From IMG/VR virus record IMGVR_UViG_3300030012_001594, positions 6,257-39,697 of that record: DNA of 33,441 bases. The stretch is one strand, 5' to 3'. The translations under genes were made by a program, and so were the position numbers. How positions within the stretch are numbered: the stretch's first letter is position 1; every line of letters starts with the position of its first letter. Below are positions 6,157-27,043 of the stretch, in pieces. Source of the DNA: a virus. The notes below the pieces were generated by a model. That model saw only the letters and a list, made by a program, of their open reading frames with translations, was not told the origin of the DNA and ran no database searches.

Positions 6157-7026
6157 TCACTCACCCCACCCATACAGGTCTGCCGCATCGCATATACCGA
6201 AGTAACTGCAAGTGGCGCAAGTCCTAGCATTGAATTTGGTCGGGAACATCTCTTGTTCATAAGCATGTATCAGCCTAGCGATTCCCTTCATCACGGCAGT
6301 ATGGCTTGACTTCTTCACTGGCTCAACGGTGATGTGGTTGGATACAGGATAGTACCAACCCCACATCTTCATGTCGTAATCCCTTGATAGACCAACAGTG
6401 TGAAGAAGTTCCTCTGGTGCATTGTCAAACAACAACTTGTAGAAGGCCATCTCCTTACGCATCGATGTTACCTTGTAGTCCTTCCAAGGGCCAGTCTTCA
6501 ACTCCATTGGTATGTACATGTCATTCTCAAAGAACATCCTGTCTATGATGCCCTGCAAGTGAACAACGTAATCTCGTTGTAGGTTAACCTCTGAATAGTC
6601 CTCTGCTCTGATGGTAATCTCTGCATCCAACATGGCCTCATTGACTACTGGTAGGAACGTATCCGATGTCTCATCTGTCAATGCTTGGACAAACCTATCT
6701 GCTTCAAAGACTGCCATAGCATAGTAGATGTCCGTGTAGTCATCTATTGGGTAAAGACTGTAACTGTAATCAACTAGTTCATCGTAATCCATCTCAGCCG
6801 CCTTCTTGATATCAAAGGCATCGAAGAAGTCCTCTCTCGCATTGTGGATTATAGTTCCCTTAGCCATTGCTTCGGTTGTATCCTGCGGAAGTCTCTCGAT
6901 GTAATTATACTGGTACTTCTTGGGACACCATTGAAATGTCCCATTGGAAGATTTAGTTATCTTCAATACTGGCTTAGTCTCATCTTCATATTCGCTTGCG
7001 CTCCATTGGTATGTGTATTCTCTCAT
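6157..7026 (-). CDS. Cas4/RecB-like PD-(D/E)XK nuclease with Fe-S cysteines
   Basis: The protein (289 residues from the chosen ATG) shows the Cas4/AddB-like pattern: an early cysteine in SNGTFQWCPKKYQYNYIERLP, a GTIIHNAREDFF helix with the conserved His, then LQGIIDRMFF and YIPMELKTGPW giving the D and ExK of the nuclease core, and three C-terminal cysteines (CATCSYFGIC). Together these predict a DNA exonuclease with a 4Fe-4S cluster. No CRISPR array or other cas gene is present, so it belongs to viral recombination or end processing. The ATG at 7026 gives an ATGA overlap with the polymerase fragment; a GTG nine bases upstream is less likely. Confidence 0.75.
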   Translation of the reverse strand: MREYTYQWSASEYEDETKPVLKITKSSNGTFQWCPKKYQYNYIERLPQDTTEAMAKGTIIHNAREDFFDAFDIKKAAEMDYDELVDYSYSLYPIDDYTDIYYAMAVFEADRFVQALTDETSDTFLPVVNEAMLDAEITIRAEDYSEVNLQRDYVVHLQGIIDRMFFENDMYIPMELKTGPWKDYKVTSMRKEMAFYKLLFDNAPEELLHTVGLSRDYDMKMWGWYYPVSNHITVEPVKKSSHTAVMKGIARLIHAYEQEMFPTKFNARTCATCSYFGICDAADLYGWGE

Positions 7027-17303: not shown

Positions 17304-18850
17304 ATTACATCACCTATCTCAGTACAATCCATTGGGCTTTTGTCATCCCTGATTCTCAGTACCCTTGGGAACCTGAGTCCATAGCCACCATCGTCGTTCT
17401 GCGTTATAGCATCGGCAGTTACCTCTAGCACGATTCTAGGTAGTAAGTTGAATACACCCTTCTCGTATGTGTCAACAACTCTCTTCAATAGAGTTGTCAA
17501 TCTAACTAGGTCACCATCAGATAGACCAGTACCAACAGAACCCAATGAAATCCATTCTCGGTTCTCATCCAATACCGCTATCTCAAATGAACCAAACACA
17601 TCATGTCTCTTGCCTTCTCCGTACTTGGCCGATATGATGACGGCATCAACCTCCAATCTAGGAGGCTTGTATTTCAGTAGCGCATCAGTGCGCTTTGTTT
17701 GATATGGTGCATCTGCATCCTTCACCATCACACCTTCGTATCCTTTGCTGATGGCTATCGAATAGGCACTTTCAATATCCGATGGGAGACTCTCTGTCAC
17801 ATGGTCAGGCCAAAACTCCTGTGTGATTTTCAGTCTCTCTGAATATGGCCTTTCCATGATTGACTCGTTGTCAGCAACCAACGTATCGAAGAACCTGACA
17901 TCCACAGGACATTCTTCAACGGCCTTCTTGATATCCTTGGAATGTACTCTAGTTCCCATCTTCTGATGGGGTGCTGGACTACCATCTGGATTCATGGGAT
18001 ATATCTCACAATCAAACACATGCACAGAGTAATCGTCAGGTGTTTTGCGAACCAATACTAGTCTCTCAATGTCAGGGAAGCATTTCACTATCTTACCACT
18101 TCTATTGAATATGATACATCCATCCGTGGAGGCATGTATCTGATACCTGTTACCATCATACTTGGTATCGACAATGTAGTTCTCCGGTAATGGTCTGTTC
18201 TCAATGGACTTAGCCAACATTGGTTTGATGTGTCTGCCATACCAACTGATTTTCGGAATCATGTCCATCCAATCAGTATTGGTATCTGCATACATCAAAT
18301 GCTCGTACCTAGGTAACTCGGATGCCTTCCTATGAAGTAGGAACTCCTTCACGCCACTACCATAATGATAGACCATAGCCTTGTTGACTGTTGATTCACT
18401 TACTCCGTTCCTAGGAGTGCGTAGCCAATAGCGAACGAACCACTTCTTCGATAATGCGTCCATGCTATTGAATTGTTCTCGGAACCTAGCGAATGAATCA
18501 CTCTTGATAGAGGAACAGTCCATAGTCAGCAGAGGTAGTAGATGATTGAGTCTTGTGTTCAGTGTTTCGCTATAAGTCTCATCGAAATGATACACTGCTT
18601 CTCCCAAGTCTCCCCATACACCTACCGCAGTTTCTATCTCCTCATCGAAGACGTTGAATGCGGTGGCTATCCAAGTCAAGGCTCTCTTGTTGCCTATGTT
18701 GTTATTTGGATAGTCACCAGACAGTATCTTCAACAGTGCCTCCTTGTCCTTGAAGGAGGATAGTGACTCCGCTATCTTCTGTGCCTTCTCATTACCACTT
18801 GTAGTATTCTCTAGTGCTTCACTCAGTCTTGCTAATTTTACCATTGTCAT
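17300..18850 (-). CDS. lig: ATP-dependent DNA ligase (archaeal Lig1 type)
   Basis: The adenylation motif is DTKYDGNRYQIH with K230 as the AMP-binding lysine. Other ligase motifs follow: VFDCEIYP (motif III region), GYEGVMVKDADAPYQ (motif IV), LLKYKPPRLEVDAVIISAKYGEGKR (motif V area) and a C-terminal OB-fold ending in FPRVLRIRDDKSP (motif VI). An N-terminal helical DNA-binding domain of about 200 residues is present with the ARFREQFNSMDALSKKWFVR helix. At 516 residues it is a little shorter than cellular archaeal ligases (about 550-600). It joins nicks and Okazaki fragments, presumably with the viral clamp. Start ATG has GTGA before it. Confidence 0.9.
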   Translation of the reverse strand: MTMVKLARLSEALENTTSGNEKAQKIAESLSSFKDKEALLKILSGDYPNNNIGNKRALTWIATAFNVFDEEIETAVGVWGDLGEAVYHFDETYSETLNTRLNHLLPLLTMDCSSIKSDSFARFREQFNSMDALSKKWFVRYWLRTPRNGVSESTVNKAMVYHYGSGVKEFLLHRKASELPRYEHLMYADTNTDWMDMIPKISWYGRHIKPMLAKSIENRPLPENYIVDTKYDGNRYQIHASTDGCIIFNRSGKIVKCFPDIERLVLVRKTPDDYSVHVFDCEIYPMNPDGSPAPHQKMGTRVHSKDIKKAVEECPVDVRFFDTLVADNESIMERPYSERLKITQEFWPDHVTESLPSDIESAYSIAISKGYEGVMVKDADAPYQTKRTDALLKYKPPRLEVDAVIISAKYGEGKRHDVFGSFEIAVLDENREWISLGSVGTGLSDGDLVRLTTLLKRVVDTYEKGVFNLLPRIVLEVTADAITQNDDGGYGLRFPRVLRIRDDKSPMDCTEIGDVI

Positions 18851-19061
18851 TTTTATTCACATCTATTATTTTCTTGATTGCCTTCATTACAATCTCTGCT
18901 TCTTCTAAATTCATTCTTATTCCTTTCTTGGTTGGCTTTCCATCAGAGTACCATCTTACATCCAGCACATCTATGTTCCAATAGTTGCCTTTCTTAATCA
19001 ACATCTCCGATGTTGCGTTCCTAGGAACCCTAGCAACTACCTCAAACTTATCATCACTCAT
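18819..19061 (-). CDS. PC4/p15-like single-stranded DNA-binding protein, 80 aa
   Basis: The segment NIDVLDVRWYSDGKPTKKGI then RMNLEEAEIVMKAIKKI closely follows the PC4 pattern ('idiR.wy...g...PtkKGI.l..ee...l...i'). PC4 proteins are dimers that bind single-stranded or melted DNA and affect transcription and replication. The start is the ATG with GGAGG eight bases before; a TTG codon one position earlier is an alternative. It overlaps the ligase start by 32 bases and could act in replication or, with the viral TFB, in transcription. Confidence 0.6.
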   Translation of the reverse strand: MSDDKFEVVARVPRNATSEMLIKKGNYWNIDVLDVRWYSDGKPTKKGIRMNLEEAEIVMKAIKKIIDVNKNDNGKISKTE

Positions 19062-19452
19062 CAATCATTCCTCCTTTCCATTCCATCATCGAGTTGTATG
19101 ACTTGAAGTATCTAGGACTCTCAAGTTCATCAACTCTATTCGCTACCCACATTACACCACCTAGACTGCTTATCTTCACAATCTCATAGGTAGCCTCTCC
19201 CCTGTTGAACATATCCTCTGTCTGCACATCAGGAGTTAATCCATAGTGCTTAGATAGTTCAAAGGAGATGTCCTGTATGTTATCCGCTATGTACTTGACA
19301 ATCAAGTGCCTCTGGATTGGAACTTTGGCATCCACTGTCAGTTTTATCTTACCACCCATATCGCAGACTCGGCATTTGTTTCCTTCGCATATCGGACACA
19401 CTATCTCCGCAGGTAGCGGAGCAGGGAACCTGACAGTGACGGCTTGTTTCAT
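19054..19452 (-). CDS. Zinc-finger protein with CxxC pairs, 132 aa
   Basis: Two close knuckles, IVCPICEGNKCRVCDMGGKI, resemble half of a DnaJ-type zinc finger (CxxC-x4-CxxC with Gly). The remainder contains a helix-strand pattern (HLIVKYIADNIQDISFELSK) with no named domain. It overlaps the Nmad1-like gene upstream by ATGA. Function unknown. Confidence 0.5.
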   Translation of the reverse strand: MKQAVTVRFPAPLPAEIVCPICEGNKCRVCDMGGKIKLTVDAKVPIQRHLIVKYIADNIQDISFELSKHYGLTPDVQTEDMFNRGEATYEIVKISSLGGVMWVANRVDELESPRYFKSYNSMMEWKGGMIDE

Positions 19453-20319: not shown

Positions 20320-20543
20320 TCTATGGCCCCCATCTCTCTCACTTCCTCTTGATGCCTAGTGTCCATCAATATATCATATGCTCGTTGCATCTTCTTGTCC
20401 TTCAAATCAGAAGTCTCCAATGCGTAATCGTACTTGATTAGCATATCCCTACAGTAGCATAGGAGGTCTAGATACTCCTTATGCTCCTTCTCCATTGTCT
20501 TTACGTCTTTCATCATCTCTTTCATCATATTACTTATTTTCAT
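20316..20543 (-). CDS. Helical hypothetical protein, 75 aa
   Basis: This is a charged, Met-rich helical protein (MMKEMMKDVKTMEKEHKEYL then MQRAYDILMDTRHQEEVREM), probably a short coiled coil. ATGA overlaps join it to the JAMM gene upstream and the microprotein downstream. It is the nearest neighbour of the JAMM peptidase, so it could be a partner, but no motif supports a specific function. Confidence 0.45.
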   Translation of the reverse strand: MKISNMMKEMMKDVKTMEKEHKEYLDLLCYCRDMLIKYDYALETSDLKDKKMQRAYDILMDTRHQEEVREMGAIE

Positions 20544-21115
20544 TCTTCTTCCTCCTTTGTTTCCTTTCCTTTCAATTTTCCATACTTCACCATCTTGCAG
20601 ATGTCTCTCTTTACGTCATAGGCCCAAAACTCGTTGTTGCCTAGTACGATTGCTGACTCCAATATCGTATTCCAAGTGTTCAGCGTCTTCCAATCGGTAG
20701 AACTGAAAAACGCACTTCCCATTGGGTGTGTGTGTATCCAACACATGATAGGTAGTGTCAATCCTACCGGGTCAAACGAGAATTCAACATAGCCGGGTGT
20801 TCCGACATCCATGAATATCTTACCATCAGCATCTATCACAATCTGTATCTCTCTTGGAATGTCAAATGCCTGTGTGGACATTTCCCATATTACTGATAGA
20901 GGCCCAACCTCTAATGAGGTATCTGGATTTGTGAATGTGTGAATACCATACTCCTTCACTGTCTCAATGAACGGTTGAAGCGACTCCTCGATTTGAGACT
21001 TCCAATCATCTATGTGAACAATAGGCTCCTTCGTGGTATCTCTGAACTTCTCACCATCCCATATCTCTATCTTCTCTTCTTGTATCTCTATGTGCTTGTC
21101 ACTCATCTTTCCCAT
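20540..21115 (-). CDS. JAMM/MPN+ metallopeptidase (JAB domain)
   Basis: The signature HTHPMGSAFFSSTD is a complete JAMM motif: H128, H130, P131, S138 and D141 in the H-x-H-P-x6-S-x2-D spacing, with an upstream Glu (around residues 78-89) as the likely base. Such enzymes hydrolyse isopeptide bonds or trim residues after Gly-Gly in ubiquitin-like proteins. No NlpC/P60 domain is fused, unlike tail protein K of lambda. The genome also encodes an E1-like protein about 440 bases upstream and a Gly-Gly-Ser-Leu beta-grasp protein, natural partners for it. It is cytosolic, with no signal peptide. A second in-frame ATG three codons in is an alternative start. Confidence 0.8.
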   Translation of the reverse strand: MGKMSDKHIEIQEEKIEIWDGEKFRDTTKEPIVHIDDWKSQIEESLQPFIETVKEYGIHTFTNPDTSLEVGPLSVIWEMSTQAFDIPREIQIVIDADGKIFMDVGTPGYVEFSFDPVGLTLPIMCWIHTHPMGSAFFSSTDWKTLNTWNTILESAIVLGNNEFWAYDVKRDICKMVKYGKLKGKETKEEEE

Positions 21116-21117
21116 AC

Positions 21118-21357
21118 TTATTGTCCTCCCATGCTTGTTATTATCAAGTCTGCTTGGTTCTCAAACTCATGGAATGCCCTGTGACCTGCAATGAATCCAC
21201 CTGCATGTCTCTTCGTTCCCATGAACTGCTCACCACAAACTGGACAAGTCACCTTGACTATCTCAGCCTGTTGGTAGAAGCCATCTGTGGTAAGAACATC
21301 AATTATCTTACCTAGGTCTTCTTCGCTTAAGTCATCTATTCCACTATTGTCTTCCAT
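21118..21357 (-). CDS. C2H2-like zinc-finger protein, 79 aa
   Basis: VTCPVCGEQFMGTKRHAGGF then IAGHRAFHEF gives CxxC followed by HxxxH after 17 residues, a C2H2-type finger. The N-terminal part is acidic and helical. I start at the ATG with GGAG nine bases before it; an ATG three codons earlier is possible, and a longer frame would run through the whole upstream gene. The last residues are Gly-Gly-Gln. It lies between the E1-like and JAMM genes, so a link to that set is possible but unproven. Confidence 0.55.
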   Translation of the reverse strand: MEDNSGIDDLSEEDLGKIIDVLTTDGFYQQAEIVKVTCPVCGEQFMGTKRHAGGFIAGHRAFHEFENQADLIITSMGGQ

Positions 21358-21358
21358 A

Positions 21359-21556
21359 TTACTCATCTCCGTTTTTGGCCCTCTGATACTTACTGTACTT
21401 GGGCCATCTGTACTTCTTTCTGATATAGTTCCTGAAATCTTCATCTTTCGGAAATCTCTTCTTGAAGTCAGCCTTCCATTTATCATACCTTATTTTATCT
21501 CTCCTGATTCTCTCAGGCGTTTCATCTTCATGTCTCTTATTCCAACTGTTTCCCAT
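21359..21556 (-). CDS. Basic hypothetical protein, 65 aa
   Basis: The sequence is strongly basic with many Arg, Lys, Asp and aromatic residues (RIRRDKIRYDKWKADFKKRF, then KKYRWPKYSKYQRAKNGDE). It has no cysteines and no membrane segment and is probably helical and nucleic-acid binding. It shares one base with the E1-like gene upstream and is two bases from the zinc-finger gene downstream. No family is recognised. Confidence 0.5.
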   Translation of the reverse strand: MGNSWNKRHEDETPERIRRDKIRYDKWKADFKKRFPKDEDFRNYIRKKYRWPKYSKYQRAKNGDE

Positions 21557-22167
21557 TATATATTCACCATCATCTTATCTGCAACGTTCTCTTCTCCACC
21601 TTCAAACCATCTTTGAATCCATTGGCTCGCCATACCAGCAATTGCGATATGTGTCAGGTTGATTCCCTCCGGGGAACCATCCCAATTCTCCCCTTGACAG
21701 GAGAAAGAGCCTTCCGGCCCCGCCAACAGCGATGTCATTAGTTTCTCTTCAATCATGTACGAGATTACTGCTCCGTTTCTACCCTGTGAGCGTAAATCTA
21801 GCCACTTGTTTCGACAATCCGCACCGAACCCCTGTCGATATACCAAACGGCGTATACCGAGGTTATCTGCACAACAAACAATCAGGTCATATCCTTGAAG
21901 TTGCTTCTCAACTAACACTGGAAATGGCTCTCTTGTAACAGTACCATCATCAGTTGCCAGTAAGATAGAGTCAACCTTCTTCTCGCCAACTGCTCCTTCG
22001 CAGAAGTTCTGCGTAGTCTCGTTCTTCCTCTCCACGTTATCATCATCATACACAGTGATATCATAGATACCAACTCTGTTTAGGAAGGAGACTAGGTAAC
22101 TGCCTATTCCTCCCGCGCCGATGACCATCACGCTTCTTCTTATCTCTGGTTTTCCATTTTCATTCAT
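21556..22167 (-). CDS. ThiF/E1-like adenylating enzyme
   Basis: The Rossmann motif VMVIGAGGIGSYLVSFLNRVG (Gly-x-Gly-x-x-Gly at residues 17-22), acidic strand end VYDDDNVERKNETTQNF, K63/K64 in GEKKVD, and DLIVCCADNLGIRR (D101, R106) are the core motifs of MoeB/ThiF/E1 enzymes. These activate the C-terminal glycine of a ubiquitin-like protein with ATP. The usual 'N..RQ' is NETTQ, so the arginine is changed. C157 in GSFSCQGEN is a candidate thioester or sulfur-relay cysteine. At 203 residues it is a minimal single domain. Its likely substrate is the Gly-Gly protein at 26840-27043, its likely counter-enzyme the JAMM peptidase. Confidence 0.8.
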   Translation of the reverse strand: MNENGKPEIRRSVMVIGAGGIGSYLVSFLNRVGIYDITVYDDDNVERKNETTQNFCEGAVGEKKVDSILLATDDGTVTREPFPVLVEKQLQGYDLIVCCADNLGIRRLVYRQGFGADCRNKWLDLRSQGRNGAVISYMIEEKLMTSLLAGPEGSFSCQGENWDGSPEGINLTHIAIAGMASQWIQRWFEGGEENVADKMMVNI

Positions 22168-22169
22168 AT

Positions 22170-23048
22170 TTACACCCTTATTCCTTTTACTATATCCTCA
22201 ACATCATAGTTGTGGATGTTACTCTTGTCAATATTCAGGATTTGACACATATCCCTTGTGGCCTTTCTAAGACCATATTCAGATGCCGACCAATTCTCAA
22301 CGATAGTCTGTTGAGGTATTGTATCATCTATCATAGCAGTTGCTAACCAAATGCAACCTGCTAATACGTTGTTACTCATCATCAAGTCTAAGTCATCATA
22401 AATCCTCGACATATACTCGATAAACAAAAGAGAGGTTTCTCTCTGCTCATTTGTTACACTTGGTATTCTTCCAAGTAAAGAATCACCTAATCTAATTGGG
22501 TCTTGTGTCGTAAAGACATAAGACTTACCATAAAATCGTGCAATCTTTTTCGCGTATCTAGAAATGAGCGAAGTTGATTCTGCTGAAACCCTCGCTACAT
22601 CTCTGAGTTTTATCACTATGTTCTGCTCTCTCATGGCGTAATACACTACACTAGCCGCTCTACTCTCGGATGCTAGATTGTCGAAGACGCGATTTCTCTT
22701 CAATGTGTAGTAGTATCCCTCACATATGCCTATCAGTGAATTGGCTGACAGGGAGGATAGGTACATGGACATCAGATTGACTGCCCTCAAATCAACTTCC
22801 GTCTTCTTCACATCTCCCTGTCTGTACATATCAATGAGGTTCTGTCCTCTATTGCCAACTATCTGCCTGACATTCTTACTGTAGAGCGTAGAGCCTAGAT
22901 GACTATTCTCATACTGCTCATCCAATGTTATCGATATGCTCTCTTCCAAGGCATTAGCCAATAGCACCAATCCACAGTCATCACAGACTGTTTCACCTAA
23001 TGCCTCAGAGAAGGAAGAGGAGTGTCCGTTACATTCCGGACATCTCAT
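22170..23048 (-). CDS. tfb: Transcription initiation factor B (TFB-like)
   Basis: The N-terminal zinc ribbon CPEC ... CDDC (C3, C6, C22, C25, ending CDDCGLVLL) and two helical cyclin-like repeats (about 90-190 and 200-290) give the TFB layout. The B-finger/linker between them is short and divergent. In archaea TFB recruits RNA polymerase to TATA-TBP. A viral copy can redirect host polymerase to viral promoters or act on the timing of viral genes. The gene overlaps the next start by four bases. At 292 residues it is near cellular length (about 300). Confidence 0.8.
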   Translation of the reverse strand: MRCPECNGHSSSFSEALGETVCDDCGLVLLANALEESISITLDEQYENSHLGSTLYSKNVRQIVGNRGQNLIDMYRQGDVKKTEVDLRAVNLMSMYLSSLSANSLIGICEGYYYTLKRNRVFDNLASESRAASVVYYAMREQNIVIKLRDVARVSAESTSLISRYAKKIARFYGKSYVFTTQDPIRLGDSLLGRIPSVTNEQRETSLLFIEYMSRIYDDLDLMMSNNVLAGCIWLATAMIDDTIPQQTIVENWSASEYGLRKATRDMCQILNIDKSNIHNYDVEDIVKGIRV

Positions 23049-24562
23049 CTTACTTCCCTCGCTAACTTCCTAAGTAACTTGTCAGATACCCTAGCCTTAT
23101 ACTGCCATTCGTGGTCATTCTCTGCTTCTTCCAATAAATTACTCAGAGTGTATATCATACTCTTAGCGGCCTTGTCATTCAGAAGCACCATAGCCCTAGC
23201 CGCAAGTTGGTCATTGGCAGTAGAGTTGTTGTGCAGATTGTCAATGCAGATACTATGACTCAGCGTATGATTGTGGAAGAGATTGCTACCGGGAATAGTC
23301 TCCTGAGTGTATTCCTTACCAATCCTATATGTCGATACATCCTGATGCCCTCTCTTCATACCTCTGTTAGCAGAGACAATCCAATCACATACCTTTCCTC
23401 TGATGTGCAGAGCATTGGTTTCCTCATTGGGCCAATGCATGAAGGTAATCTGTGGATACTCGTTGTCCAAGTCTATCAGTAGTTTCTCTGCTCTCTGCTC
23501 GACAATCTTCTCCGTTCGGTTCTGAGAGAGCCAAGCCAACATCATCTTCTCCTGTGAGGAAGTAGGTGTTTCTTCCAGTAGTGTCTTCCAAAGATTCCTA
23601 GGTGAAATCTGAACCCACTTCTTGGCTCGCTTCCTTCCGTGTCTATAGTAAGAGATGAACCTGTTCAGTTCGGTGACTGACATAGCGGCCCAAATACCGT
23701 CTGATATCTGCAAGGCTACTTCCGTGTTGGAAATCAACTTGGTATCAATCTTGACTTCCTTCCTCTCACCATAGTCATAGTAGTGATATGGAGTCCTGTT
23801 CTCCAATGCATAGAGAACGTTGTATGGAATAGTGGTAACCTTCTCCACATAATCCATCAGCACCTCCTCACTTCTGACGTATATAGCACGAAGGATAATC
23901 TTCGCCAGTGCGGAAACAACATCCTCCTTGACCATCTTGATTCCGTCGATGTAGAAACCAGATGCCTTACGCGCTAACGATATAGTAGCATCGCCATCAG
24001 TGTACCTGAATGTGATATCCCACTTCACTAGGTTATCTCCGAAATCCCCCTTAGCAGTTCTAAGTGGAATTAGAAACTGTTCCACCTGACCTCTTAGAAG
24101 TTCAAAGAGAGGGTCTTCCTTGTGTCTCTGACCGATAGACGGTCTTGGACAATGTATTTCTCTTTCACCTCGACTGTTGAGGCCATTGGTTCGATATGAA
24201 TGCACATCGAACACATTATCCTTGAAAGGATGAAACAACTGCCTTCTCTGTTGTTTGGTAAGATAGCCATGTGGCACTACCTCAGATAGAGGCCCGGTGT
24301 AGAAGTTGGCATATTGATATTCAACTATACTTCGATGTATGTTAGATGCCTTGAAATCATCTGGTGCATTCCTCAACCAGTCATTCAACTTACTTCTATA
24401 CATTTTAGTTGTGACTCCACCGTGGCCGTGGTAAAGTATGGTTGAATTCCTACGATATAGTTTAGGAAACATCCACTTCTTGTTTGTCTTGAATAGGAAG
24501 GATACGCTATTGTACCTTGCTTCTCTGTCCGATAGAATCGGTATGTTGTATTTTATTTTCAT
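23045..24562 (-). CDS. Hypothetical protein, 505 aa, with a faint E2-like C-terminal motif
   Basis: I do not recognise a family. The N-terminal half is mixed helix and strand with many Arg and Tyr; the middle contains TDGDATISLARKASGFYIDG and a YYDYGERKEVKIDT stretch. Near the end FHNHTLSHSICIDNLHN (cysteine C439) recalls the H...ICLD.L active-site segment of ubiquitin-conjugating enzymes, followed by helices. With E1-, JAMM- and ubiquitin-like genes nearby this is worth a structural check, but the match is short and could be chance. The gene overlaps TFB by four bases; GAGAAG lies before the ATG. Confidence 0.45.
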   Translation of the reverse strand: MKIKYNIPILSDREARYNSVSFLFKTNKKWMFPKLYRRNSTILYHGHGGVTTKMYRSKLNDWLRNAPDDFKASNIHRSIVEYQYANFYTGPLSEVVPHGYLTKQQRRQLFHPFKDNVFDVHSYRTNGLNSRGEREIHCPRPSIGQRHKEDPLFELLRGQVEQFLIPLRTAKGDFGDNLVKWDITFRYTDGDATISLARKASGFYIDGIKMVKEDVVSALAKIILRAIYVRSEEVLMDYVEKVTTIPYNVLYALENRTPYHYYDYGERKEVKIDTKLISNTEVALQISDGIWAAMSVTELNRFISYYRHGRKRAKKWVQISPRNLWKTLLEETPTSSQEKMMLAWLSQNRTEKIVEQRAEKLLIDLDNEYPQITFMHWPNEETNALHIRGKVCDWIVSANRGMKRGHQDVSTYRIGKEYTQETIPGSNLFHNHTLSHSICIDNLHNNSTANDQLAARAMVLLNDKAAKSMIYTLSNLLEEAENDHEWQYKARVSDKLLRKLAREVR

Positions 24563-24800
24563 AATAATCTTCTCCGTAATTTTTATTGTAATATTGCTTT
24601 CTTTCTTTCAGTTCCCTGATATCAGAGAACGTCTTGTCTGTGTGGTTGAACAATGCCCGCCTGATGAACTTGGTGAAATACCTCACACCAATCTCACCAT
24701 TCTCCAAACAGTGGTATGTTTGGGATACGGCGGGTTTGACCGACGCAGGAAAGAGAGCGGTAACTTCGCTCTCAATCAAAAGAAAGTCTTCCTTGTTCAT
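24507..24800 (-). CDS. Hypothetical protein after the ribonucleotide reductase, 97 aa
   Basis: From the ATG that overlaps the reductase stop (ATGA) the protein reads MNKEDFLLIESEVTALFPAS. It has a central helical region (YFTKFIRRALFNHTDKTF) and a basic end. No family is recognised. Translation coupling to the reductase suggests a shared expression level. It overlaps the next gene by 56 bases, unusually long for this array, so one of the two starts may be different. Confidence 0.45.
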   Translation of the reverse strand: MNKEDFLLIESEVTALFPASVKPAVSQTYHCLENGEIGVRYFTKFIRRALFNHTDKTFSDIRELKERKQYYNKNYGEDYYENKIQHTDSIGQRSKVQ

Positions 24801-26686
24801 ATCTCGCAAACACCACCTGCACAAGCAAGTTCTCCTTGCAAGTCGGTGTTGTCTTCTGTTTCCTTCAACTCCCTGAAATCGATGTTCTTCAAGAACTTCT
24901 TGTATTTCAGGAATGTCTCCTCATCAATAGCAGTCAATGGTGATTGCATTGAGATTCCATCCTCTACATCCATGTAGAATCTAGTGAAGGATAATCCGTT
25001 GTAGCAATGTCTGTTGACCCATAGCCAATCTCTAACCAAGTCCCACTCCTCATCGCGTATGTTGCAAGTAGCAGATACGTTGTGTGTGTTCAAGCCATCA
25101 ATATGACCCTGACCAACCCAATCCTCACTGACTCTCTTGACTCTCTCAAGGAAGTCTATTGCAGTCTCGTCCCTAGTCATCGCTCCTTCGGGAGCCTTCT
25201 GTGGTAGGAAGACCACACTGCCATTCGGGTCTTCCTTGTTTTCCTCTACCAACTCAGGCACTCGCTCTTTCATAAATGGAACAATCGCCTCCATGTTGTT
25301 GTAGCGAACTGTTCGCATGAAGTACTCTGAATGCCAAGGATGGATTCCAGAGGCAGTACCTAGAACCAAACTGGATGTACCTGCTGGTTTTACGCAAGTG
25401 ATTCTTGCGGCACTGTTGATTCCTAGTTCCTCTGCCCAAGCACTGTTTGTCATCTTAGCGACATCAGCCGCTTCTGTCAAATCCAACTCCTCTACGGCCC
25501 CACTAGCGAAACCAGTCATCGATACACCTAGTAGAGCATCCTTCTCTGTTGTCTCCTTCCAGATGTCCCTGATGTAATGGAAGTCTGTGTAAGTTGCCTG
25601 TAGCGTTCCGAGGAAAGTAGCGGCCTCTACTCTGTTGTTCAAGTCCTCTTGAGATTCAACATCGCTGATGTTGCATTCTGAGAGATTACAGAACTGATAG
25701 GGACGTAATCCAATTTCTGCACAAGGATTTGTTCCCCAATCCTTGTCATTGCTGAAGTACATGCCCGGTTCCGAACCGCCATTCTCCTTAATCATGGAGA
25801 AGAACTCATTGAAGAACTTCTTCGTTATTCTATTCCTAAGTAGGACTGCTGAATTGTTTGCCCTTTGCCTCCAAGGATGAGTAATCCAATACTCACCAGT
25901 CTTCGACGTAAGCATCTCCTTGTCATCAGCACTGAATAGTGAAATCATTGCTGACCTTCTGATACCACCAGATATCACTGCATCTGCAATTCGACATTGC
26001 ATATCGTGAACCTCGATAGGTTTCATCTGATGATAGTTAGGCATGTCAATCAACATACCCTCTATGATAGTCAGGCAGTTCCTCAATGGTGTTGGGCCGG
26101 GAGCCTTACCACCACTAGTCTTCAATGGACTTCCCTTTGGTCTAATGTCCGAGTAGTCGAATCTAGGAGTAGTAGTTCTCATTCCAGTGTAAGACTCAAA
26201 CAGAACTCTCACTGCTTCTGCCCATCCCTCTTGTGAATCACCAATCAGATGTCGGTAAGTCCTGTTGGGATTCGGCTTGACTATCTGTGGCAATTTAGCC
26301 ACGTGATGTCTCTGCACTGAATAACCCACACCAGTCCCACCGAGCAGTAGGAACATTGTCTCGCTAAATGCGCGTACATCCTCTATTGGCATGTAGGCAC
26401 AATTGTATATCCTATTAGGCGACCTCTCTATTGCTACTCCTCCAAATTGAAGTGAGCGCATAGAAGGCACTACCTTCTTAGGAAGAACATAGTTCTTGTA
26501 GACATCCTTAATCTTGGCAACGACCTTCTTGTTACCTTTGAATTTGTTCAAATGCATCTGCATGTTTCTCTCGATTATCTCTTTCCAAACTTCTCTTCTT
26601 CCAAGTTTCTCATCATATTGAGCATACTTGGTGTTTGTAATCATATCACTCATTATTTCTTGTTCATATTGTATTTCTGCTTTCAT
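24797..26686 (-). CDS. nrdJ: Adenosylcobalamin-dependent (class II) ribonucleotide reductase
   Basis: Key cysteines follow the monomeric class II enzyme of Lactobacillus: NRIYNCAYMP (the C119-type redox cysteine), NPCAEI (thiyl cysteine plus Glu two on) and CNLSE exactly 11 residues later (second redox cysteine). LLGGTGVGYSVQ is also typical, and the C-terminal ACAGGVCEI pair reloads the active site. At 629 residues it is shorter than the 739-residue RTPR. It makes deoxyribonucleotides for viral DNA synthesis and needs vitamin B12 from the host. The mRNA leader before it is rich in hairpins. No small subunit gene is present, as expected for class II. Confidence 0.9.
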   Translation of the reverse strand: MKAEIQYEQEIMSDMITNTKYAQYDEKLGRREVWKEIIERNMQMHLNKFKGNKKVVAKIKDVYKNYVLPKKVVPSMRSLQFGGVAIERSPNRIYNCAYMPIEDVRAFSETMFLLLGGTGVGYSVQRHHVAKLPQIVKPNPNRTYRHLIGDSQEGWAEAVRVLFESYTGMRTTTPRFDYSDIRPKGSPLKTSGGKAPGPTPLRNCLTIIEGMLIDMPNYHQMKPIEVHDMQCRIADAVISGGIRRSAMISLFSADDKEMLTSKTGEYWITHPWRQRANNSAVLLRNRITKKFFNEFFSMIKENGGSEPGMYFSNDKDWGTNPCAEIGLRPYQFCNLSECNISDVESQEDLNNRVEAATFLGTLQATYTDFHYIRDIWKETTEKDALLGVSMTGFASGAVEELDLTEAADVAKMTNSAWAEELGINSAARITCVKPAGTSSLVLGTASGIHPWHSEYFMRTVRYNNMEAIVPFMKERVPELVEENKEDPNGSVVFLPQKAPEGAMTRDETAIDFLERVKRVSEDWVGQGHIDGLNTHNVSATCNIRDEEWDLVRDWLWVNRHCYNGLSFTRFYMDVEDGISMQSPLTAIDEETFLKYKKFLKNIDFRELKETEDNTDLQGELACAGGVCEI

Positions 26687-26839
26687 ATAAATACCCCAAT
26701 TGAAGTGGGCTTTTCACCCACTTGGCAGTTAACCCATGCTTGGGATACTAGGCATCGAGAATCGATACTTAGTAGTTACCGAAATAACACACTTGGCATT
26801 ATAACGGCTTGCGTAAATCTGTCACTGTGATGGGTCTAT
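26687..26839 (-). ncRNA. Structured leader upstream of the ribonucleotide reductase
   Basis: This is the largest intergenic gap in the array. In it are three consecutive hairpins: AAGTGGG/CCCACTT (arms 26703-26709 and 26717-26723), CCCA/TGGG (26733-26744), and a 13-base near-perfect pair TACTA...TAGTA with a TTC loop on the minus strand (26746-26774). The motif TGCCAAGTG occurs twice on the minus strand. The first hairpin ends 16 bases before the reductase ATG. I do not find the conserved cobalamin riboswitch core. A regulatory RNA, attenuator or processing signal is possible. Confidence 0.4.
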
Positions 26840-27043
26840 CTAAAGACTGCCACCGACAACGGCTGGTACTAGTTGTACTGAGTCAACATCGTCCCAAGCA
26901 AATGTGTTTACCTCTTCCCTGCTGACCATCTCTCCGTCAGCGAAAACCCAGTGGGTGGGATGGTCCGTTATCTGCTCGATAAGTTCCATGTTGGTTACTT
27001 CTAGTTCAGTATGTCCGGTTTCGTTCATAATTCGTAGTTTCAT
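26840..27043 (-). CDS. Ubiquitin-like beta-grasp protein ending in Gly-Gly-Ser-Leu
   Basis: This 67-residue protein starts MKLRIMNETGHTELEV, an edge beta-hairpin, has one helix region (MELIEQITDHP), and ends DSVQLVPAVVGGSL. The last strand is close to the MoaD/ThiS signature ('v.lvPpv.GG'), with G64-G65 followed by two extra residues. A precursor with residues after Gly-Gly needs trimming, which JAMM peptidases do for QbsE-type proteins (GGCF end). The genome encodes such a peptidase and an E1-like enzyme. It could be a protein modifier or a sulfur carrier. GGTGA lies six bases before the ATG. Confidence 0.65.
   Translation of the reverse strand: MKLRIMNETGHTELEVTNMELIEQITDHPTHWVFADGEMVSREEVNTFAWDDVDSVQLVPAVVGGSL

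Follow-up and report, generated by a model that had tools for sequence, protein, structure and literature searches.

A ubiquitin-like protein, an E1-like enzyme and a JAMM peptidase encoded together by a magrovirus-like archaeal virus: a likely E2-independent protein-modification system

The stretch of viral DNA analyzed here (the window, 33,441 nucleotides) covers positions 6,257 to 39,697 of the 39,697-base IMG/VR virus record IMGVR_UViG_3300030012_001594. Its minus strand carries genes for a 67-amino acid ubiquitin-like (Ubl) beta-grasp protein (26840..27043), a predicted E1-like adenylating enzyme of the ThiF/MoeB fold (21556..22167, 203 amino acids) and a predicted JAMM/MPN+ metallopeptidase (20540..21115, 191 amino acids). 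The open reading frames of the window confirm these coordinates and lengths, as well as the arrangement of the three genes in a single same-strand array, as proposed in a preliminary description of this DNA. Relatives were collected by scanning IMG/VR with each of the proteins, which yielded 337 E1, 206 Ubl and 230 JAMM relatives; the best 80 of each were kept (the first set), and the set was later enlarged.

The C-terminus of the Ubl reads VQLVPAVVGGSL, with VVGGSL as its final residues. The AlphaFold2 model, calculated from a six-sequence alignment, has a mean predicted local distance difference test (pLDDT) score of 89.8 and the order beta-beta-alpha-beta-beta-beta (strands at residues 2-7, 10-15, 31-35, 38-40 and 55-60, helix at 18-27), the last residues being disordered. 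Foldseek matched the model to ubiquitin, ISG15, SUMO, MoaD and the sulfurtransferase chain 5ztb_E in the PDB (best E-value 5e-3, probability up to 0.99), the modest E-values being attributable to the small size of the protein, and, in a library of viral structures, to giant-virus ubiquitin-like proteins and the phage tip attachment (tail) protein J. The beta-grasp fold foreseen in the preliminary description is thus borne out. Gly64-Gly65 (26849..26854) is invariant: all 132 distinct relatives, representing 122 sequence groups, carry Gly-Gly followed by 0-9 freely differing residues (Y, C, SL, Q, NC, NY and others). The Ser-Leu tail of the window protein (26843..26848) accordingly has counterparts that differ in both length and sequence, and 17 of the 132 Ubls have no tail beyond Gly-Gly. 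Because the Gly-Gly is kept while the residues behind it vary in number and kind, the Ubl is not a chance resemblance; as modeled, the small protein folds as a beta-grasp with an invariant C-terminal Gly-Gly that is either free or exposable. Sequence searches of PDB, phage and PHROG collections returned no informative match for the Ubl. In Pfam, ThiS was matched at E = 0.02, with the alignment reaching the final profile position, and 9 of 33 Ubl members weakly matched PinA, a Lon-inhibitor family, over approximately 46 residues (best 1.4e-4, 22.2 bits). Every PinA match lies below the cut-off of 27 bits, and a PinA-type protease inhibitor unrelated to the E1 and the JAMM would leave the invariant Gly-Gly, the ubiquitin-like fold and the strict partnership with the other two genes unexplained, making this reading of the Ubl extremely improbable.

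The E1 matches Pfam ThiF (1.5e-16, 60.7 bits, cut-off 28.1) and has neither zinc CxxC pairs nor a rhodanese domain. The ATP-site and acidic motifs pointed out earlier hold up, among them the GxGxxG nucleotide loop and the DxD motif, with Gly17, Gly19, Gly20, Gly22, Asp41, Asp43, Asn49, Lys64 and Asp101 as well as Cys157 present in 139 of 139 E1s of the first set. Cys157 (21697..21699), situated in the sequence SFSCQ, is the candidate thioester cysteine; the SCQ motif is kept in all 178 distinct E1s of the enlarged set and aligns with the SC motif of PRTRC ThiF, its correspondence to the canonical E1 cysteine being less than clear. In the N-x-x-R-Q motif, Tyr or Thr takes the place of the arginine, a residue that E1s of crAss-like phages also lack. 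Many NCBIfam E1 families were weakly matched, none above its cut-off, such that the scores for UbaA (46.9 bits, cut-off 450) and PRTRC ThiF (39.4 bits, cut-off 144.75) fall short of orthology to the former and membership in the latter. In profile comparisons, PRTRC ThiF nevertheless proved homologous and was the best full-length match among the sets compared (hhalign probability 99.3, E-value 2.8e-20, 171 columns), and the crAss-phage E1 aligned along the N-terminal half. This modifies the preliminary description: the E1 is no close match to the SAMP-activating UbaA or to ThiF.

The peptidase carries the motif HTHPMGSAFFSSTD, corresponding to His128-x-His130-x7-Ser138-x2-Asp141 (20693..20734), and its catalytic glutamate, Glu89 (20849..20851), opens the first MPN-core strand of the AlphaFold2 model (36 sequences, pLDDT 85), with the HTH-Ser-Asp residues at the third strand and the helix that follows it. 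All 5 residues are kept in 151 of 151 JAMMs of the first set and HxHx7SxxD in 189 of 189 distinct JAMMs of the enlarged set; the motif had been described as intact, and no relative has lost it. The match to Pfam Prok-JAB (3.2e-4, 21 bits) is below the 25-bit cut-off, and 35 of 36 diverse relatives match the same family. The top Foldseek matches are 6fnn_A, in which a Caldiarchaeum homologue of Rpn11 is bound to ubiquitin, and AMSH, with low template modeling (TM) scores of 0.30-0.38; a profile search of PDB sequences placed AMSH-type deubiquitinases first (AMSH-LP, 6.3e-6). Phage records gave no match. Removal of the residues after Gly-Gly, the role initially assigned to the JAMM, suits the tailed Ubls, which are the majority, but is insufficient as its whole role: groups with tail-less Ubls (17/132) retain an intact JAMM wherever checked. 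The JAMM thus appears to be more than a precursor trimmer, and its retention where the Ubl needs no trimming suggests a part in deconjugation in addition to maturation.

The 3 genes are found together throughout their relatives, as had been anticipated. In each of the 81 first-set groups that are complete, they share a strand and run Ubl, E1, JAMM, and in the enlarged set the Ubl and E1 are separated by 2.3-8.3 kb and the E1 and JAMM by -9 to 1746 bases. Wherever coverage allows, the partners are present, with strand and order unchanged: the Ubl in 86/86 groups with more than 7.6 kb upstream of the E1, the JAMM in 112/112 groups with more than 2.6 kb downstream of the E1, and both E1 and JAMM in 92/92 groups with more than 9.5 kb downstream of the Ubl. 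Among 34 records picked by an unrelated gene, that of the clamp loader, each absence was compatible with a contig end. Of 39 records measuring 86-103 kb, 38 contained the Ubl, the exception having its E1 3.6 kb from the contig end. One relative, IMGVR_UViG_3300021958_000021, measures 184,733 bases, approximately twice the usual genome of its relatives, and is perhaps a duplicated assembly. All 3 genes are under purifying selection, with ratios of nonsynonymous to synonymous substitution rates (dN/dS) of about 0.1 (medians 0.10, 0.13 and 0.10 for Ubl, E1 and JAMM, respectively). There is little doubt in our view that the 3 proteins form one Ubl-E1-JAMM system, which, judging from these comparisons, is a core gene set of one lineage rather than a repeated independent association. 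Because every readable genome has all 3 genes, the viruses of this lineage probably introduce into the cell a reversible protein-tagging system of their own.

The Ubl gene lies 4.7 kb upstream of the E1 gene, with a class II ribonucleotide reductase (PHROG 367, 1e-118), a 505-amino acid protein and a TFB-like protein, in which Pfam recognizes a TFIIB zinc ribbon, in between. The 505-amino acid protein (23045-24562, minus strand) is of no recognized family, has an invariant Cys-Ile-Asp motif and occupies the position between the Ubl and TFB in 7 viruses compared; its profile did not match PRTRC proteins B, F and E or crAss proteins. Pfam and PHROG further identified an SF1 helicase, a clamp loader, a split family-B DNA polymerase, an ATP ligase and a PD-(D/E)XK nuclease in the window. 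The order SF1 helicase, TFB, RFC-S, PolB (as N- and C-terminal pieces) and nuclease is that of the Magrovirales in the profile of the International Committee on Taxonomy of Viruses (ICTV; PMC10768690), in agreement with the archaeal virus assumed at the outset; the sliding-clamp gene of the magrovirus order had no Pfam match among the window proteins. The Aoguangviridae of the order Magrovirales are linked to marine Poseidoniales (PMC10768690, PMC12999244). By gene order, set against the ICTV description, the virus is magrovirus-like, tailed and predicted to have marine archaeal (Poseidoniales) hosts. When the E1 was used to query the genomes of bacterial and archaeal species, 2 contigs matched, NZTP01000016.1 (an Altibacter metagenome-assembled genome) and NZMJ01000073.1 (a Maricaulis metagenome-assembled genome), the latter carrying the viral JAMM besides the E1; both contigs bear the same viral genes and are probably mis-binned viral DNA.

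This setting bears on the possibility that the proteins process virion or tail components, as do the ubiquitin-like TAPI and the JAB plus NlpC/P60 protein TAPK of lambda. The fold of the Ubl is indeed like that of domains of protein J, and pairs of JAB and ubiquitin-like proteins are known from tail modules (PMC1779556). However, the surrounding genes serve replication and transcription (TFB, RFC, ligase, PolB, helicase), the JAMM is a stand-alone protein free of NlpC/P60, and tail sets have no E1. We regard a function in tail assembly as very unlikely.

The output of the system is probably protein conjugation, and the 3 proteins likely constitute a virus-encoded, reversible and E2-independent ubiquitin-like protein-modification system. 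For E1s that are paired with a JAB and have no rhodanese, Iyer et al. (2006) proposed ubiquitin-like transfer to lysines, reversed by the JAB (PMC1779556), and in Haloferax, UbaA performs sampylation and HvJAMM1 desampylation (PMC4895103). The JAMM would trim the tailed Ubl to expose Gly-Gly, the E1 would adenylate the terminal glycine and, as its motifs suggest, probably hold the Ubl as a thioester on Cys157. Lysines of proteins from the virus or its host may then receive the Ubl with no recognizable E2, as in archaeal SAMP/UbaA or Urm1 systems, and the JAMM could reverse the bond, as suggested by its AMSH/Rpn11-like fold and its presence where trimming is needless.

Alternatively, the E1 could turn the trimmed Ubl into a thiocarboxylate donating sulfur to tRNA, a nucleotide, cysteine or a cofactor, with the JAMM trimming or recycling the carrier as in QbsE/QbsD and CysO/Mec+, a possibility included in the preliminary description. 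ThiS is the only weak Pfam link of the Ubl to a known Ubl family, the best TM-score among the listed PDB matches (0.61-0.63) belongs to 5ztb_E, a 65-amino acid sulfurtransferase-complex chain, and Ubl-E1-JAMM sets dedicated to sulfur assimilation are known (PMC1779556). Yet no rhodanese (PF00581), cysteine-desulfurase-type (PF00266, Aminotran_5) or TtuA-type (PF01171, ATP_bind_3) protein was found in any of the 39 long records, and the searches were positive in 13-14 of 14 control genomes; this favors conjugation over sulfur transfer. The E1 architecture described above, the lack of a recognizable metabolic acceptor gene nearby and the retention of the JAMM where trimming is needless also speak against a sulfur carrier, which we deem unlikely. 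With donor genes absent and the JAMM kept where no trimming is needed, E2-independent reversible conjugation is the best reading of the locus.

Several points weigh against this interpretation. The co-occurrence of the 3 genes is not independent evidence of their joint function, because they share a conserved order within one viral lineage. Sulfur could be supplied by host enzymes, so that the missing donor genes weaken the sulfur-carrier option without disposing of it. The E1 does not have the N-x-x-R-Q/H arginine that is present in PRTRC and CBASS E1s, and its adenylation activity is a prediction. Finally, an E2 was found neither in Pfam scans of the window proteins nor, for 3 E2 families including the Prok-E2_D of PRTRC protein B, in any of the 39 long records; no control genome was positive either, so this null result is not evidence of absence.

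As to what might be tagged, TBP2 is reportedly sampylated in Haloferax, which, together with the viral TFB gene nearby, suggests, as a speculation by analogy, transcription factors as one possible target. The set might instead serve to interfere with a SAMP-like system of the host, the viral Ubl and JAMM acting as decoy and desampylase and the viral E1 rerouting or sequestering host conjugation. The JAMM does resemble AMSH/Rpn11, and Borg elements of archaea have numerous predicted deSAMPylases, for which a function against host tagging has been proposed (PMC12660748). The virus nevertheless has a complete set of its own, in which the Gly-Gly is invariant and the E1 motifs are conserved; this argues for use rather than blockade alone, and interference seems decidedly improbable. 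We see about an even chance that an entire lineage of abundant archaeal viruses has, as a core gene set, a self-contained, E2-less ubiquitin-like conjugation system with which host or viral proteins are tagged and untagged in the course of infection, a viral counterpart of SAMP.

Between the E1 and JAMM genes lies a gene for a C2H2 zinc-finger protein (21118..21486, minus strand), whose Cys81, Cys84, His102 and His106 are kept in 57/57 relatives; judging by the length of these relatives, approximately 80 amino acids, the protein probably begins near 21366. Only a subset of the viruses has the gene, which occurs in 31 of 81 complete first-set groups. In one clade, the protein ends in [MLV]-Gly-Gly and a single further residue (I, A, V, Q, T or L), and in another in G[ML]xA. 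A second modifier as a general feature was rejected, given that Gly-Gly is missing in one clade. The link of the zinc-finger protein to the Ubl-E1-JAMM set is uncertain; it is possibly a substrate or an adaptor. Further along the minus strand (18819-19064), a protein conserved among relatives weakly matches the PC4 transcriptional coactivator (2.8e-4, below the cut-off).

Prokaryotic Ubl systems are known from host metabolism, host regulation and anti-virus defense. In viruses and other elements, pieces only are known already, namely, TAPI and JAB of tails, the E1 and JAMM of crAss-like phages and the deSAMPylases of Borgs. The magrovirus literature that we searched makes no mention of ThiF, JAB or ubiquitin, and nowhere in the literature searched was a complete Ubl-E1-JAMM set described for an archaeal virus; the primary magrovirus papers lie outside this search, so annotation of single genes there is possible. 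If our interpretation is correct, archaeal viruses would make ubiquitin-like tags, not merely remove them. The locus would then offer a compact 3-protein system in which to test how an E1 works without an E2, and a candidate route by which viruses reshape their uncultured marine Poseidoniales hosts.

Likenesses to known systems are each partial. Lambda and T1 share with the present virus a virus-borne ubiquitin-like domain with a conserved Gly and a JAB peptidase (TAPI and TAPK; PMC1779556), but their JAB is fused to NlpC/P60 in a tail module with no E1, rather than standing alone among replication genes. Borgs likewise are archaeal extrachromosomal elements with JAMM/AMSH-like peptidases, and Borg Lilac also has a SAMP; these peptidases are, however, multicopy and interpreted as counter-defense, and the passages of that study considered here describe no conserved Ubl-E1-JAMM set (PMC12660748). 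The PRTRC operons of plasmids, to which row 6d of Iyer et al. (2006) appears to correspond, similarly combine, on a mobile element, a Ubl, a JAB-type protein and an E1 that has WLDL and a single SC motif in common with the viral enzyme. They also include an E2 (Prok-E2_D) as well as proteins E and F, of which no counterparts were found in the virus, and PRTRC_C ends in GAKG and has no profile similarity to the viral Ubl. In crAss-like phages (crAss001 gp76 and gp77), a virus-borne E1 adjoins a JAMM (HSHx7SGTD) near a B12-dependent ribonucleotide reductase, and the viral JAMM matches gp77 at the profile level (probability 80, E-value 1.4e-5); the crAss proteins are larger, the hosts are bacterial, and no Ubl was recognized in the stretch read. 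This pair lies at 3256-5654 of L325 (gp77, gp76) and is also present in L327, L406 and L407. The anti-phage systems CBASS, with Cap2 and Cap3, and Bil employ an E1 and a JAB for protein tagging in virus-host conflict. Unlike the viral set, these are host defenses with fused E1-E2 proteins, and the viral E1 resembles the PADLOC E1-E2 proteins in the N-terminal part only. The SAMP/UbaA/HvJAMM1 system of Haloferax has, like the viral one, an archaeal Gly-Gly Ubl, a single E1 and a JAMM deconjugase, with no dedicated E2 described. The viral E1 is shorter than UbaA and far below its cut-off, as given above, and the viral system differs further in being encoded by a virus, in a single gene array, and in the short tail that follows Gly-Gly in most relatives.

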